A program made the position numbers and the translations under genes. From Caulobacter segnis (GTDB taxonomy: Bacteria > Pseudomonadota > Alphaproteobacteria > Caulobacterales > Caulobacteraceae): DNA of 64,000 nt. The notes under the pieces are model-generated. The model worked only from the letters and a program-made list of their open reading frames with translations, was not told the DNA's origin and did not search any database. Below are positions 1-4,702 of this stretch, piece after piece. Position 1 is the first letter of the stretch, and the number at the start of each line of letters is the position of its first letter. Location: contig NZ_JARQWW010000005.1 in the NCBI RefSeq assembly GCF_029543125.1, positions 310,001 to 374,000 on the forward strand, written 5' to 3'.

Positions 1-442
1 GAAGATCGCCACCCAGGGCGGACATGACGCGATAGGCCGCCTCATGGGCCGCGCGGCGATCTTGCCCCCCATCTGCGGCGCGCGCGGCCTCGACCAGACG
101 GCGCAGCGCGACGGAGGCTCCGCCCGGCTGCTCGGCCAGCCATTCCCAATGGCGCGGCAGGAGGGTCACCTCCCGCGCCACCACGCCCAACTTCGGACGC
201 CCCCTGCCCCGCTGAGGCTCAGGTTCGGCATAACGCCCACGAACCTCGCCCTCGTCCCCACGGAGGTCGAGATCGATCAACCTCCCCTTGCGGTCGAACG
301 TCAGGACAGTTTGGTTGGGGTCCGCCTTCAGCGCCTTCCAGACAGCCACCGCCACCTCGGCCCGGTGGCCCGAGGCGATGCGATGATGACCGGCGAAAGC
401 CGTACAGACTTCAGGCGTGGGGGAGTTGGTCGCATCTTTCAT
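1..442 (-). CDS. DUF2239 family protein (partial, 3' end outside window)
   Basis: The reading frame opens at the ATG at 442 (MKDATNSPTPEV) and stays open for 147 codons to base 1, so the C-terminus lies outside the window. The visible part has the features I associate with DUF2239: an early TAFAGHHRIASGH segment, a DLDLRGDEGEVRGRY strand, a GRGRPKLGVVAREVTLLPRH block and a GGASVALRRLVEAAR helix. The family is cytosolic and of unknown function. The gene lies 51 bp downstream of the repeat-protein gene on the same strand, which does not prove a shared transcript. The family call is from motif memory. Confidence 0.75.
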   Translation of the reverse strand, partial: MKDATNSPTPEVCTAFAGHHRIASGHRAEVAVAVWKALKADPNQTVLTFDRKGRLIDLDLRGDEGEVRGRYAEPEPQRGRGRPKLGVVAREVTLLPRHWEWLAEQPGGASVALRRLVEAARAADGGQDRRAAHEAAYRVMSALGGDL

Positions 443-493
443 GCGCGCCTTTTACCCGGACGAAATATGGACGTCAATATCGCCCGGGTGATA

Positions 494-3400
494 TCAACCG
501 TAGAACGGATTGATCCCGATCGCCTCCAACTGCGCGGGGCTCATGCACTCGTTCAACTGGTAGGCCGTGAACTTGTTGATCTGAGCGTTGGTCATGGAGC
601 CCAGCTGATGCGTGCTCATCTGCTGGAGCTGTTCCTTGGACAAGCCGGGAATCTGGGCCGGCATCAGATAGCCGATTTGGGTGGTGTTGAGCTGGCCGAC
701 GACGGTGGGCGAAAGCTGACCGATCTGGGTCGGGGTCAGAGCCTTGATCTGGCTGGGCGAGAAGCCTCCGATATCCGTGATGTCGAACGCCGCGAGCTGC
801 ACGCCGGAAAGGCCCCCCATCTGGTCGCTGCTGAGCTTGCCGATCTGTTCGGTGCTGAACGCCGCGATAGCGTTGTTGGAGAAGGCTGCGATCTGGCTGG
901 CCGAGAACGCGCCGATCTGGGTGACGCTGAGTTCGCCCACATCCTCCACCGTGAAGCCGCGGATCTGCGCCGCCGACAATCCGGCGATCTGCCCCCCGGA
1001 AAGCGCCGCCACCTGGCTCGCCGACAGCGCCGAAATCTCCTCCGCCGAGAAGGATGCGAGCTGACTTCCGCTCAGGGTGGAGATCTGGGTGGTCGTGAAC
1101 TCCGCCATGTCGGCGACCGCCAGCGCCTCGAGCTGGGTGGTCGACAGACCCTGGATCTGGCTCTGGGTCAGAGCGCCGAACCGCGTGGCGTCCATGCCCA
1201 CGACGTTCTCCGTCGTAAGTGCGCCGATCTGAGCGGCGGAGAAGGCGCCGATCTGGCTCGTCGTCAGGGCGTTGAAGTGCGTGGCCGTCAATCCGCCGAT
1301 GTTGGTCGTGCTCAGTCCGGCGATCTGGGTGTTGTCCAGCGACGCCACCTGGGTCGAGCTCAGCGCCGAGAAGGCCCCGGCCGAAATCCCGCCGATCTGG
1401 GCGGCGGTCAGCTTGTCCAGCTCGGTGATGGACAGCCCGGCGACCGTCGTGGCGGAAAGCGCGCCGAACTGCGTGCCGGTCAGTTGGCCCAGACGGCTGC
1501 GCAGGTGCCCCGCCTCCAGCGCCAGGACCTGATCAGCGTTCAGGCCTTGGACCTGCGTTGCCGACAGCGCCGCGAACTCGGTGCTCGTCATCTCATGCAG
1601 GTTCGTGGCCGCTACGGCGCCCAACTGCGTCGCGCTGAGCGCGCCGAGCTGGCTGATCGTGAACTCCTCGAAGTCGGTGATCGACAGGCTGGCGATCTGG
1701 GTCGTGGTCAGCCCGCCGATCTGGCCGTTGGACAGACTCGCGACCTGGGTCGCAGTAAGCGCCGACAGTGCGGTCGCATTCAGCGCGCCGATCTGGCTGC
1801 TGACGAGACTGGCGATCTGAGTTCCCAGCATGTCGCCGACCTGCGTCGCGGTCAGAGCCCCCACCTGAGTCGTCGTGAAGCCCCCCAACTGCGTCTTGCT
1901 CAGCCGGGTGATCTGGGTGGTGTCGAGGCTCGAGACAGCGGTCGTCGATAGCCCGCCGATCTGGGCCGCCGACAGCGAGGCCACCTGGGAGGCGTTGAAC
2001 TCCCGCACATCATCGGGGCTGAGGCCGCCGATCTGCGTGGTCGTCAGCCCCTTCATCTGGGTGGTGGTCAGGGTTGCGATCTGGGTCGCGTCCAGCTCGG
2101 CGAAGGCGGTGGATGACAGGGCGCTGAGCTGGGTGGCGGTAAGCGCTGCGATCTGGGTCGTGGTCAAGGCGCCGATTGCGGTCTCGCCCATGGCCGCCAA
2201 CTGGGTGGTCGTCAGCCCCTTGACTTGGGTGACCGAAAGCGCCGCGACCGCGGTGGAAGACAGACCCGAGATATTGGTGGCCGAGAACGCGGCCATCTGC
2301 GTGGGCGTGAAGGCGGCGAGCTGCGTCGCGGTGAACTCGCCGAAATCCTCAGCGCTCAAGCTCTTGAGCTGCGTCGCCGTCAGGCCGCCGACTTGTGTGG
2401 TCGTCAGCATCGCCACCTGGGTGGCGTTCAAGCTGGCGAAGGCCGTTGTCGATAGCGCCGCGACCTGAGAGGGCGTCAGGGCGGCGAGTTGCTCGTCGGA
2501 CAACTGGCTGAAGGCGTCGACGTTCAGGGCCGCGAGCTGGGTTGGCGTCAGAGAATTGAACTGCGTCGTGCTCAGTGCATCAATGTCGGTCTTGTCGAAC
2601 AGGGCCAGCTGCGTCGCCGTCAGGGCGCGGACCTGCGTCACGCCTAGGGCCGCCAGTTGTGAAGCGCTGAAATCCGAAATGCCCGTGGCGGAGAGCGCCG
2701 CGATCTGCGCCGCCGACATGGCGGCGATCTGGGTGGTCGTGAAGGAGATGACGTCATCGCGATCGAAGCCCTTCATCTGGGTCGCCGTAAGGCCCCGGAT
2801 TTGGGTGACGGTGAGCCCCGACAACTCTTCGGGCGTCAACGATCCGATATTGGTGGCTGAAAGCGCCGCCAATTGCACACTGGTGAAGGCCGCGATCTGA
2901 TCGGAGTCGAACTCCGCGAAGTCGTCCTCGCTCAGGCTGCGGAGCTGGGCGACGGAGATGGCGCGGATTTGGGTTGCGGATAGCGCGCCGACCTGCGCCG
3001 CCGTCAACTCAGCCAAGGCCGAGGTGGACAGACCCGCGATCTGGCTTGGGGCCAGGTTGGCGATCTGATCGCTGTCGAACAAAGGCGTCAGAACCCCGAC
3101 CTGAGCGCCGCTGAGCGTCGCCATCTGGGTGCTGGTGAATTCGCCGACGTCCACCGCGTCCAGACCGCGAAGCTGGGTCGTGGTGAGCGCCTTGAGCTGG
3201 CTCGCGGACAGCGCCTCCACCTGTGCCTGGTTGAGAGCGGAAATCGCGGTGGGCGAAAGCTGGGCGATCTGCGACGGCGCCAGGGCGGCGATCTGCGTCG
3301 GCGTCAAGGCGGCGATGCCGCTGACGTCGATATCCTTCAGCTGGCTGGTGCTCAGCGCTTTCAGCTGGGTGGTCGTCAGGGGCGTGGTGCTGCTCAGAAC

Positions 3401-4702
3401 CGCCAGCCCCTCCGGAGTCAGGGCGTTGATCTGAATCCCGGTCATGACGTTGATCTGCTCGGCGGTGAATTCGCCCAGATCCTCGATGGTCAGACCCTTC
3501 ATCTGCGCCGCGCTGAGCGCGCGGACCTGGGTCGTGGTCAGGGATGCGATGTCGTCTTCGGACAGGTCGGACAGGGCTGTGACCGAAATTTGCATCACCT
3601 GGGCCGCGGTCAGGGCCCGCAGCTGAGTGATGTTGAACTTCTCGAAGTCGGCCACCTCCATCGACTTGATGTGAGGAATGCCGAGCCTGCCGATCTGGGT
3701 CACGGTCAGACCGGAGATCTGATCCTCGGTCAGGCCTCGGAACTGGGTGGTGGTGAGCGCGCCGAACTGAGAAGGATTGAGGCTTGAGATCTGCTCGGCG
3801 GAAAGGCTCTTGAAGGCCTCCTCCGACAACCCTGAAACCTGCGCCATCGACAGGGCGCCGATCTGGGTCGAGCTGAAGTGCGCGAGCATCGTCGGCTCGA
3901 TCACCCCCATCTGAGCGACCGTCAGTCCTTTCATCTGGGTCATGTTCAGCGCGGTCAACTGACCCACACTGAAAGAGCTGAACAGCTCAGGCTTCAACGC
4001 CCTGATCTGCGCGGCTGACAGTTGCTGAATCTGCGCGGGGCTGAATTCGGCGATGTCGTCGACGCCGAGCGCATTGAGCTGCGTGACGGTCAGGGTCTTC
4101 AGCTGGGTTTCATTCAGGCTGGAGATCTGCTCGGCGCTCATTGCCGAAAGACCCGTGCCGGTCAGCCCTCTAAGCTGAGTGGCGCCCAATTGAGCGACCT
4201 GCTCAGCGGAAAACTCGCCGATGTCGTCCTCCGACAGGCCCTTCATCTGGGAGGCCGCGATGGATCGAAGCTGCGTCGCCGACAGCGCGGCGATCTGTTC
4301 GCGCGTCAGAGCCGAGAAGCCCGTTTCCGTAAACGCGCTGATCTGCGCGCCCTTGAGCTCCGCGATCGCGCCGACGTCGACGGCCGCGATCTGGCTTTCC
4401 GTCATTGCGCGGATCTGGCTCTGATTCAGAACCGCCAGTTGTCCCGGGCTGAAGGTGATGCCTGCGGAAAGACGCGGAATCTGGATGCGCGTCAGCGCCT
4501 TCACCTGCTGCGGAGACAGAGTGGCGAACTGCTCCGCGCTGACGGCCTCGATCGCGCTGCTGTTGATCGCCGCGATCTGAGACGGCGTCAGCAGCTTGAA
4601 TTCCGACGGCGGCAGCTCTTCAAAGAAGCCTGGGCCCAGCGTGGCGATCTGGCCCGGCGTGAGCTTGTTGATCGGCGTGTTCGAGACCGACGAAATGGTC
4701 AT
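494..4702 (-). CDS. Giant octapeptide-repeat protein, function unknown
   Basis: This 1402-residue protein is almost wholly an 8-residue repeat of form L-[S/T]-x-x-Q-[I/V/L]-x-x (for example LTTTQIAA, LSATQLRS). It starts near residue 14 and runs close to the C-terminus, giving roughly 170 units. Every seventh unit carries an acidic pair in place of T-Q and is usually followed by Phe (LSEDDIGE-F, LGVDDIAE-F, LSAEDFGE-F). The unit three further on often has A or G in place of Q. Together these give a 56-residue super-repeat, for example acidic units at about residues 156, 212, 268, then 348, 404, then 590, 646, 702, then 782, 838, 894. Register breaks occur near residues 78-91, 436-441 and 538-549, with another near 1000. 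There is no Sec signal, membrane segment, RTX nonapeptide or recognised catalytic domain. The only cysteine I see is near the end (NECMSPAQ). S/T-x-x-E/Q/D is a classic helix-capping box, so a solenoid of very short helices is my inference. Function is unknown. Confidence 0.85.
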   Translation of the reverse strand: MTISSVSNTPINKLTPGQIATLGPGFFEELPPSEFKLLTPSQIAAINSSAIEAVSAEQFATLSPQQVKALTRIQIPRLSAGITFSPGQLAVLNQSQIRAMTESQIAAVDVGAIAELKGAQISAFTETGFSALTREQIAALSATQLRSIAASQMKGLSEDDIGEFSAEQVAQLGATQLRGLTGTGLSAMSAEQISSLNETQLKTLTVTQLNALGVDDIAEFSPAQIQQLSAAQIRALKPELFSSFSVGQLTALNMTQMKGLTVAQMGVIEPTMLAHFSSTQIGALSMAQVSGLSEEAFKSLSAEQISSLNPSQFGALTTTQFRGLTEDQISGLTVTQIGRLGIPHIKSMEVADFEKFNITQLRALTAAQVMQISVTALSDLSEDDIASLTTTQVRALSAAQMKGLTIEDLGEFTAEQINVMTGIQINALTPEGLAVLSSTTPLTTTQLKALSTSQLKDIDVSGIAALTPTQIAALAPSQIAQLSPTAISALNQAQVEALSASQLKALTTTQLRGLDAVDVGEFTSTQMATLSGAQVGVLTPLFDSDQIANLAPSQIAGLSTSALAELTAAQVGALSATQIRAISVAQLRSLSEDDFAEFDSDQIAAFTSVQLAALSATNIGSLTPEELSGLTVTQIRGLTATQMKGFDRDDVISFTTTQIAAMSAAQIAALSATGISDFSASQLAALGVTQVRALTATQLALFDKTDIDALSTTQFNSLTPTQLAALNVDAFSQLSDEQLAALTPSQVAALSTTAFASLNATQVAMLTTTQVGGLTATQLKSLSAEDFGEFTATQLAAFTPTQMAAFSATNISGLSSTAVAALSVTQVKGLTTTQLAAMGETAIGALTTTQIAALTATQLSALSSTAFAELDATQIATLTTTQMKGLTTTQIGGLSPDDVREFNASQVASLSAAQIGGLSTTAVSSLDTTQITRLSKTQLGGFTTTQVGALTATQVGDMLGTQIASLVSSQIGALNATALSALTATQVASLSNGQIGGLTTTQIASLSITDFEEFTISQLGALSATQLGAVAATNLHEMTSTEFAALSATQVQGLNADQVLALEAGHLRSRLGQLTGTQFGALSATTVAGLSITELDKLTAAQIGGISAGAFSALSSTQVASLDNTQIAGLSTTNIGGLTATHFNALTTSQIGAFSAAQIGALTTENVVGMDATRFGALTQSQIQGLSTTQLEALAVADMAEFTTTQISTLSGSQLASFSAEEISALSASQVAALSGGQIAGLSAAQIRGFTVEDVGELSVTQIGAFSASQIAAFSNNAIAAFSTEQIGKLSSDQMGGLSGVQLAAFDITDIGGFSPSQIKALTPTQIGQLSPTVVGQLNTTQIGYLMPAQIPGLSKEQLQQMSTHQLGSMTNAQINKFTAYQLNECMSPAQLEAIGINPFYG
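560..4663 (-). repeat. 24-bp coding repeat array with 168-bp super-period
   Basis: This is the DNA counterpart of the octapeptide array. Eight codons give a 24-bp period and seven units give a 168-bp super-period. The reverse-complement motif ATCTGGGTCGTGGTC and its relatives recur across the region. Codon choice varies between copies, so the repeats are diverged at DNA level and conserved mainly at protein level. This argues for old duplication kept by selection rather than recent tandem expansion. The even codon periodicity also leaves long open frames on the opposite strand, which are artefacts. Confidence 0.85.

Follow-up and report, generated by a model that had tools for sequence, protein, structure and literature searches.

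The question raised by this locus is what a very large protein built almost entirely of eight-residue repeats may form, and what it may do for the bacterium. The protein, of 1402 amino acids (aa), is encoded in a 64,000-nucleotide stretch of Caulobacter segnis DNA (assembly GCF_029543125.1, contig NZ_JARQWW010000005.1, positions 310,001 to 374,000), which is called the window here. It is a member of the ALTTAQ repeat family (Pfam PF20080). Among Caulobacter relatives, the genomes with ALTTAQ genes also carry a gene for one subtype of GT41 glycosyltransferase. The best reading of the whole mechanism, including the screw, the GT41 enzyme and export, is an O-glycosylated, probably secreted rod, to which we assign a probability of roughly 55%.

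The octads of the window protein were placed by a dynamic-programming parse with an iterated octad profile. The parse showed 171 octads covering 1368 of the 1402 residues, and four pieces of 4–6 residues each broke the octad run. Position 1 was L, F, M, I or V in all 171 units (L 116, F 32), and position 6 was I, L, V, F or M in all 171. Position 2 was S or T in 126 units and position 4 in 101, i.e., S/T filled 227 of the 342 sites at these two positions. Ala, Thr and Ser were the commonest residues at positions 3–4, and position 5 was Q in 116 units and lacked Q in 55. The autocorrelation of residue identity peaked at a lag of 56 (0.316, the top value among lags 1–459), with 0.282 at lag 24 and 0.273 at lag 8 against a background of 0.090. 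Further peaks were found at lags 112, 32 and 80. The original prediction, made from the letters of the window, had described an octapeptide repeat over nearly the whole protein nested in a 56-residue super-repeat, and both levels were confirmed. It had also listed 11 special units, acidic and usually followed by Phe, all spaced 56 residues apart. Position 5 lacked Q in all 11, and so did the unit three places later in 11 of 11, as had been claimed. An acidic residue at position 5 was found in 9 of the 11 and a following Phe likewise in 9 of 11. The spacing of 56 held within the listed runs, but slips of 80 residues occurred between residues 268 and 348 and between 702 and 782. The near absence of Cys (one residue) and the lack of a hydrophobic N-terminal stretch or signal peptide (by eye) were as described.

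The window protein matched PF20080 with an E-value of 8.6e-155 (502.6 bits, cut-off 26.4) in 50 stretches. HeliScrew4 (PDB 9zem, 120 aa), which is a solved structure, matched it by phmmer at 6.7e-16 over 108 residues, and the view that no fold had been described for this repeat was not supported. HeliScrew4 shares octads such as LTPEQIAA with the window protein. However, it is short and mostly carries Pro-Glu/Asp at positions 3–4, where the window protein mostly has Ala, Thr or Ser, and from its name and idealised sequence it looks designed. The PF20080 model has 38 positions, or 4.75 octads, and does not express the turn of 3.44 octads described below. Our searches of an open-licence library gave no paper on ALTTAQ, PF20080 or HeliScrew. 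Four other Pfam matches over cut-off (CAAP1, EndoS LRR, DUF4351 and Phage_TAC_7) were taken as chance repeat matches because each covered one stretch and they were mutually unrelated. LRR proteins in the PDB sequence search were set aside as generic repeat resemblance.

AlphaFold2 was run on six-sequence alignments in two halves. The model of residues 1–700 had a predicted local distance difference test score (pLDDT) of 89.8 and a predicted template modelling score (pTM) of 0.55, and that of residues 701–1402 had values of 90.1 and 0.62. Nearly every octad formed one helix, mostly of 4–6 residues, followed by a short turn, in agreement with the solenoid of one-turn helices proposed earlier. 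The best explanation of these models is a single-domain alpha-solenoid, in which the octad L-S/T-x-x-Q-I/L/V-x-x would make one helical turn with Ser/Thr as its cap. HEAT, ARM and TPR units have about 30–40 residues and two or more helices. They share the helical solenoid with the ALTTAQ proteins, whereas the ALTTAQ unit has 8 residues and mostly one helix of 4–6. Foldseek found no close solved relative of the models. Long HEAT-type proteins gave template modelling (TM) scores of 0.05–0.24, which we regard as generic repeat resemblance, mesothelin gave a probability of 0.99–1.00 with a TM score of 0.23–0.36 by target length, and 9zem was absent among the 50 listed matches. The octad type is not among the eight alpha-solenoid subfolds given in a 2024 review (PMC11514114). 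Weak Foldseek matches of the model to phage and giant-virus proteins were also seen, including the uncultured phage proteins A0A6J7X2V1 and A0A6J5QPU1 in BFVD (32% identity over 131 columns for one of them), and tblastn gave no match in 50,697 phage records.

The 55 non-Q units showed a best period of 3.45 octads, with a power of 36.9, when each break of 4–6 residues was counted as one unit; 2000 shuffles scored on the same grid reached at most 11.6. If the breaks were left uncounted, the best fit was a period of 3.36 with a power of 16.1, and the shuffle maximum was 14.6 (2000 shuffles). The one-unit rule was picked after the no-unit result had been seen and was then used unchanged on other proteins. 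Under this rule 27 of 34 family rows, which are not independent and include orthologues and pieces of single genes, peaked at 3.37–3.53, and 24 of those beat all 300 shuffles. The next-Phe series of the window protein showed no peak above its shuffles, and the acidic-unit series peaked only under the one-unit rule, and barely (12.0 vs 11.4).

Near-identical DNA duplications inside genes of relatives provided independent evidence for the turn, because the window protein was not used in this analysis; the window gene has no recent near-identical internal DNA duplication. The lags were 14, 17, 24, 27, 31, 34, 38, 44 and 45 octads and best fitted a turn of 3.43 octads. At a fixed turn of 3.44, 200,000 random draws of 14 lags included none with an equally good fit. 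When each lag value was used only once (nine lags), P was 5e-6 at the fixed turn and 0.004 if the turn could take any value from 3 to 4. The lag list was picked by hand, leaving out multiples or sums of smaller lags in the same gene and the lag of 24 in L090, a second Niveispirillum-group gene. The best explanation of the sequence data is a turn of approximately 3.44 octads (27.5 residues), with duplications that would span near-whole numbers of turns. The seven-unit superhelical turn of the original prediction was dropped because one period, 3.44–3.45 octads, accounts for the non-Gln units and the duplication lags fit it too. With this period, 56 residues correspond to about two turns and the 80-residue slips to about three, and the two special units in every seven fall on a single stripe, as the a and d positions of a coiled coil do. 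The chain would wind into a rigid screw in which most units carry Gln, and about once per turn a small or acidic residue would take its place, forming a stripe along the rod.

Two full-length orthologues of the window protein had 89 and 85% identity and four others 40–43%, and all were collinear. The Q/non-Q state was unchanged at 171 of 171 units in the first two and at 140–143 of 164 units in the other four. Compared with the window protein, the 40% group had a main indel of 56 residues (8 + 48 in a second alignment), and orthologue L047 had 80 residues extra. A 649-aa frame on the opposite strand (window 2–1951 (+), open at the window edge) overlaps the 3′ part of the repeat gene, as might be expected if the gene were a spurious open reading frame (ORF) in GC-rich repeats or functionless low-complexity sequence. 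This frame is probably a by-product of the GC-rich, 24-bp periodic codons of the repeats. The artefact is contradicted by the selection test, in which the nonsynonymous rate was well below the synonymous rate (Ka/Ks 0.069/0.505 and 0.092/0.702 against two orthologues), indicating purifying selection on the window frame. The Q/non-Q pattern was also kept at 40–43% identity, and the 87 PF20080 matches in the window's genome lie on the coding strands of three genes. We consider the chance of an artefact negligible. The other two genes encode paralogue 2 (1086 aa) and paralogue 3 (1975 aa, the longest), and both have a break near unit 9–10 (QIPxL...FSxxQ) that by eye resembles break 1 of the window gene.

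Paralogue 3 is followed on the same strand by genes for a 677-aa Glyco_transf_41 protein (Pfam 5.8e-81) and a 545-aa TPR protein. The GT41 protein was over the Pfam cut-off and showed no TPR at 1e-5, with a weak TPR-lipoprotein match at residues 56–112, and its counterparts at eight other loci showed TPRs (Pfam). Pfam assigned the neighbour to Glyco_transf_41 in 9 of the 9 loci tested. ALTTAQ genes were present in 13 of 61 related genomes, and exactly those 13 held a paralogue-3-type GT41, nearly full-length and with 54–100% identity. The GT41 match lay at most 0.75 kb from the ALTTAQ match on the same contig in all 13, although the copy in genome G004 has an internal stop. In the other 48 genomes the best GT41 match did not exceed 359 bits, and 13 of the 48 had such a weaker match. 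With phylogeny ignored, the chance of the 13/13 pairing was 1.5e-13 over the 61 genomes and 2.8e-10 when only the 37 genomes of one genus were counted. The ALTTAQ-linked GT41 forms a separate subtype, the other matches in these genomes having 28–50% identity to it, and the window's genome has no GT41 other than the neighbour of paralogue 3. The product of the third gene of the paralogue-3 cluster (L022:15242–16879 (+)) has a TPR at its N-terminus and the sequence FISDIDLLL in its C-terminal half; by eye the protein resembles a nucleotide-sugar transferase and is perhaps a second, glycan-extending enzyme. In four genomes (L093, L098, L100 and L101) the paralogue-3 orthologue is preceded upstream by a 765–767-aa frame with a signal-like start, GH3-like by eye, and then by a transporter-like gene. 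This frame was not seen in the window-genome stretch L022.

The same gene pair is also present in, among others, Rhizobium, Cereibacter, Niveispirillum and Pseudomonas. Among 72,556 plasmid records, 59 had ALTTAQ matches. The Rhizobium GT41, used as a query, matched 98 plasmid records, 60 of which were listed with their best place; the 14 best were all ALTTAQ plasmids, with the pair 0.2–8.1 kb apart. The pair lay within 10 kb in at least 26 of the 59 ALTTAQ plasmids, 11 of these being largely alike Cereibacter plasmids. In the ALTTAQ record UR115 the best GT41 among the matches listed was far away, and Azospirillum plasmids carried GT41 without ALTTAQ. In a class-level sample of 387 genomes, ALTTAQ was found in seven, with GT41 beside the ALTTAQ gene in five. 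In a phylum-level sample of 397 genomes, 24 had an ALTTAQ match and 128 a GT41 match. Twenty of the 24 were over cut-off, assigned by dropping the four weakest E-values. GT41 was present in 15 of these 20 and in 113 of the 377 others (Fisher 7e-5, phylogeny uncorrected), and the two lay within 10 kb in at least 9 of the 20. Among ten named ALTTAQ loci in genome contigs (six Caulobacter/Caulobacterales, Caenispirillum, two Alphaproteobacteria and one Solidesulfovibrio metagenome-assembled genome), GT41 was present in two (L049 and L050).

We propose that Ser/Thr at octad positions 2 and 4 are the likely acceptors of a dedicated cytosolic TPR-GT41, and that the enzyme beside paralogue 3 would act in trans on the window protein in the cytosol before export. 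The 40–43% orthologues kept S/T at 76% of the S/T sites of the window protein at position 2 and at 68% at position 4, compared with 34, 23 and 17% at positions 3, 7 and 8. Where the window protein has no S/T, the orthologues had it at 51 and 37% of sites at positions 2 and 4, and at 21, 15 and 12% at positions 3, 7 and 8. Because S/T is common at such sites too, the preference is positional more than tied to single sites. Helix capping could account for S/T at position 2, less easily at position 4.

The same loci could be read in another way, namely that the rod is a non-glycosylated secreted or surface protein or adhesin, that GT41 and the sugar genes serve lipopolysaccharide, capsule or flagellin, and that the clustering reflects shared surface-making. 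UDP-galactopyranose mutase, glycosyltransferase and deacetylase genes lie near some ALTTAQ loci, and flagellar genes lie near two. On the Cereibacter plasmid pA, dTDP-rhamnose genes and two sulfotransferases (L139:1435–6626) lie about 5–10 kb from the GT41 gene; their products are also possible glycan donors or decorations. However, these sugar genes vary between loci, whereas the constant neighbour, present in 13 of 13 ALTTAQ-bearing Caulobacter relatives, is one TPR-GT41, and enzymes of this type are known to act on proteins. Eukaryotic OGT is such a TPR-plus-glycosyltransferase enzyme. FlmG, a Caulobacter TPR-glycosyltransferase, O-glycosylates flagellin in the cytosol before export and is dedicated to one protein family (PMC7591256). 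FlmG has a similar TPR and glycosyltransferase design, but its substrate is flagellin, and the GT41 linked to ALTTAQ belongs to a subtype of its own. The non-glycosylated rod is a minority possibility, and we hold it to be doubtful.

Evidence for export came from relatives. Twelve plasmid loci were fetched (L052–L055 and L139–L146, the last eight picked for being near GT41), and a type I ATPase together with an HlyD adaptor was found at five of them: two Pseudomonas, Cereibacter sphaeroides 2.4.1, Pseudoroseomonas and Niveispirillum (its secretion genes tested in L084, which covers the identical stretch). The PrtD-type ATPases of both Pseudomonas loci and the HlyD of Niveispirillum were over the NCBIfam cut-off. 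The Cereibacter HlyD fell slightly short of it (205.8 vs 208.65). Cereibacter, Pseudoroseomonas and Niveispirillum have HlyB-type ATPases that scored under their cut-off, with HlyB still their best model. In both Pseudomonas ALTTAQ proteins the repeats give way at the C-terminal end to a region resembling calcium-binding, RTX, VCBS and Ig plasmid proteins (a search with 260 residues; 117 plasmid records, both queries included). This region had no Pfam or NCBIfam match over cut-off, and the window protein ends in repeats. Where type I secretion genes adjoin, they would export the glycosylated rod, which may become a surface or matrix fibre. The structural or surface role of the original prediction is graded possible, and the type I genes it suggested looking for adjoin some relatives but not the window gene.

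A number of observations weigh against the glycosylated, secreted rod. Concerning the screw, 5 of the 34 rows (L052, L053, L054, L055 and L090) showed other strong periods, two (L082 and L085) had no period, and three short pieces peaked near 3.4 yet not above all shuffles. Concerning the enzyme, the window gene and paralogue 2 had no GT41 or type I genes as neighbours, and none were found next to six fetched orthologues of the window gene, one of which (L047) had only about 1 kb of flank. In the class sample, G181 had no GT41 and the GT41 genes of G092 were far from ALTTAQ. In the phylum sample, 9 of the 24 genomes with any ALTTAQ match had no GT41, among them 5 of the 20 strong ones (four of one family and G489). 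Concerning export, the Caulobacter ALTTAQ loci examined had no type I genes next to them. HlyD was over cut-off in 10 of 14 ALTTAQ-bearing Caulobacter genomes. Genome G001, listed as 100% complete, has ALTTAQ and GT41 and no HlyD over cut-off, and the sole over-cut-off HlyD of the window's genome sits in a region that is S-layer/lipopolysaccharide-like by eye.

The missing signal peptide (by eye) and the absence of type I genes at the Caulobacter loci examined suit a cytoplasmic scaffold or filament, any glycosylation of which would be intracellular, as with eukaryotic OGT. Weak HlyD-like matches (50–58 bits) were found 5–7 kb from the ALTTAQ genes of G026, G031 and G032. Those of G026 and G032 adjoin TetR-like genes (in G032 also an MFS-like gene) and look like drug-efflux adaptors by eye, and G001 lacks an HlyD over cut-off, which also fits a rod kept in the cytoplasm. 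On the other side stand the type I exporters beside the Pseudomonas, Cereibacter, Pseudoroseomonas and Niveispirillum relatives and the RTX-associated C-terminal region of the Pseudomonas proteins. We consider a cytoplasmic rod quite unlikely. The Thr-rich octads and the annotation of some Cereibacter relatives as "ICE nucleation protein" raise the idea of an ice-binding or ice-nucleating protein, a rigid rod whose regular rows of Thr would order water. This annotation probably comes from repeat similarity only, other Cereibacter records say "heme utilization protein", and no ice-nucleation family was among the Pfam and NCBIfam hits shown (maximum E-value 10). Ice nucleation proteins are beta-solenoids, whereas the fold predicted here is helical, and we regard an ice-related function as very improbable.

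The glycosylated, secreted rod resembles two known systems. In Haemophilus, HMW1A/HMW1C pairs a giant exported protein with its own adjoining GT41 gene. HMW1 is a beta-helix that is N-glucosylated and exported by two-partner secretion, whereas the ALTTAQ models are helical and the NCBIfam N-glucosyltransferase model gave the Caulobacter GT41 28.9 bits against a cut-off of 1000. The serine-rich-repeat glycoproteins of Gram-positive bacteria have giant Ser/Thr-rich repeats with dedicated glycosyltransferase and export genes. The ALTTAQ proteins share such repeats, but the enzymes (GtfA/B, with accessory Sec export) and the octad helices, which that system lacks, differ.

The flanks of the window gene are ordinary, with DUF2239 downstream and a YdcZ exporter, an HI0933-like flavoprotein and PanE upstream. 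The features of the gene are collected in Table 1. Elsewhere in the family, very long ALTTAQ frames of about 4,700–6,400 aa were seen at L046:7354–21519 (+) (open at the locus end) and in G497, G525, G532 and G715. Many GT41 matches occurred in single ALTTAQ-holding genomes (57 in G475 and 47 in G521), and frames of about 2,300–3,800 aa with several GT41 stretches each were found among G475, G521, G514, G525, G532 and G497. At L142:13998–21289 and L144:13322–16865, ALTTAQ genes lie in adjoining or overlapping pieces beside GT41 and secretion genes, which suggests frameshifts from phase variation or repeat assembly error. The Spiroplasma endosymbiont of Drosophila plasmid CP117533.1 matched by tblastn at 24.7% identity over 98% of the query; this may be a low-complexity chance match or a distant octad protein.

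Table 1. Positions of the repeat gene and its parts in the window.
Feature	Window positions	Strand	Basis
ALTTAQ-repeat protein gene (P1), 1402 aa	494..4702	(-)	ORF; Pfam PF20080 8.6e-155, 50 stretches; Ka << Ks
Octad array, residues 6–1394, 171 units of 8 residues	521..4687	(-)	Parse; AlphaFold2 short helix in nearly every unit
Break 1, residues 78–83, follows unit 9	4454..4471	(-)	Parse
Break 2, residues 436–441	3380..3397	(-)	Parse; overlaps longer model helix H430–439
Break 3, residues 538–541	3080..3091	(-)	Parse; inside longer model helix H532–541
Break 4, residues 1070–1073	1484..1495	(-)	Parse
C-terminal end, QLEAIG in 7/7 aligned sequences (window and six orthologues)	497..544	(-)	Alignment

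The repeat and the fold are of a known kind, and the gene pairing and the measured turn are new as far as our searches reach. No paper describing the GT41–ALTTAQ pairing was found among the titles and abstract openings given by our searches of an open-licence library. The turn of 3.44 octads, derived from sequence phase and duplication lengths, is a sharp prediction on an alpha-solenoid type, and together with the gene pairing it makes the system testable. There are about even odds, in our estimate, that ALTTAQ screws are the natural substrates of a bacterial TPR-GT41 subfamily, showing a helical O-glycan lattice and growing by near-whole-turn duplication, and so are a Gram-negative counterpart of the serine-rich-repeat glycoproteins. 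O-GlcNAc transferase relatives are common among bacteria (128 of the 397 genomes in the phylum sample), but to our knowledge their targets are mostly unknown, apart from cases such as flagellin. In a Thermobaculum study, no modified protein could be identified (PMC4683255). A giant repeat protein that travels with one GT41 subtype is a direct, testable candidate substrate. If the reading is true, a sugar-coated surface rod would mark a target for this enzyme class.

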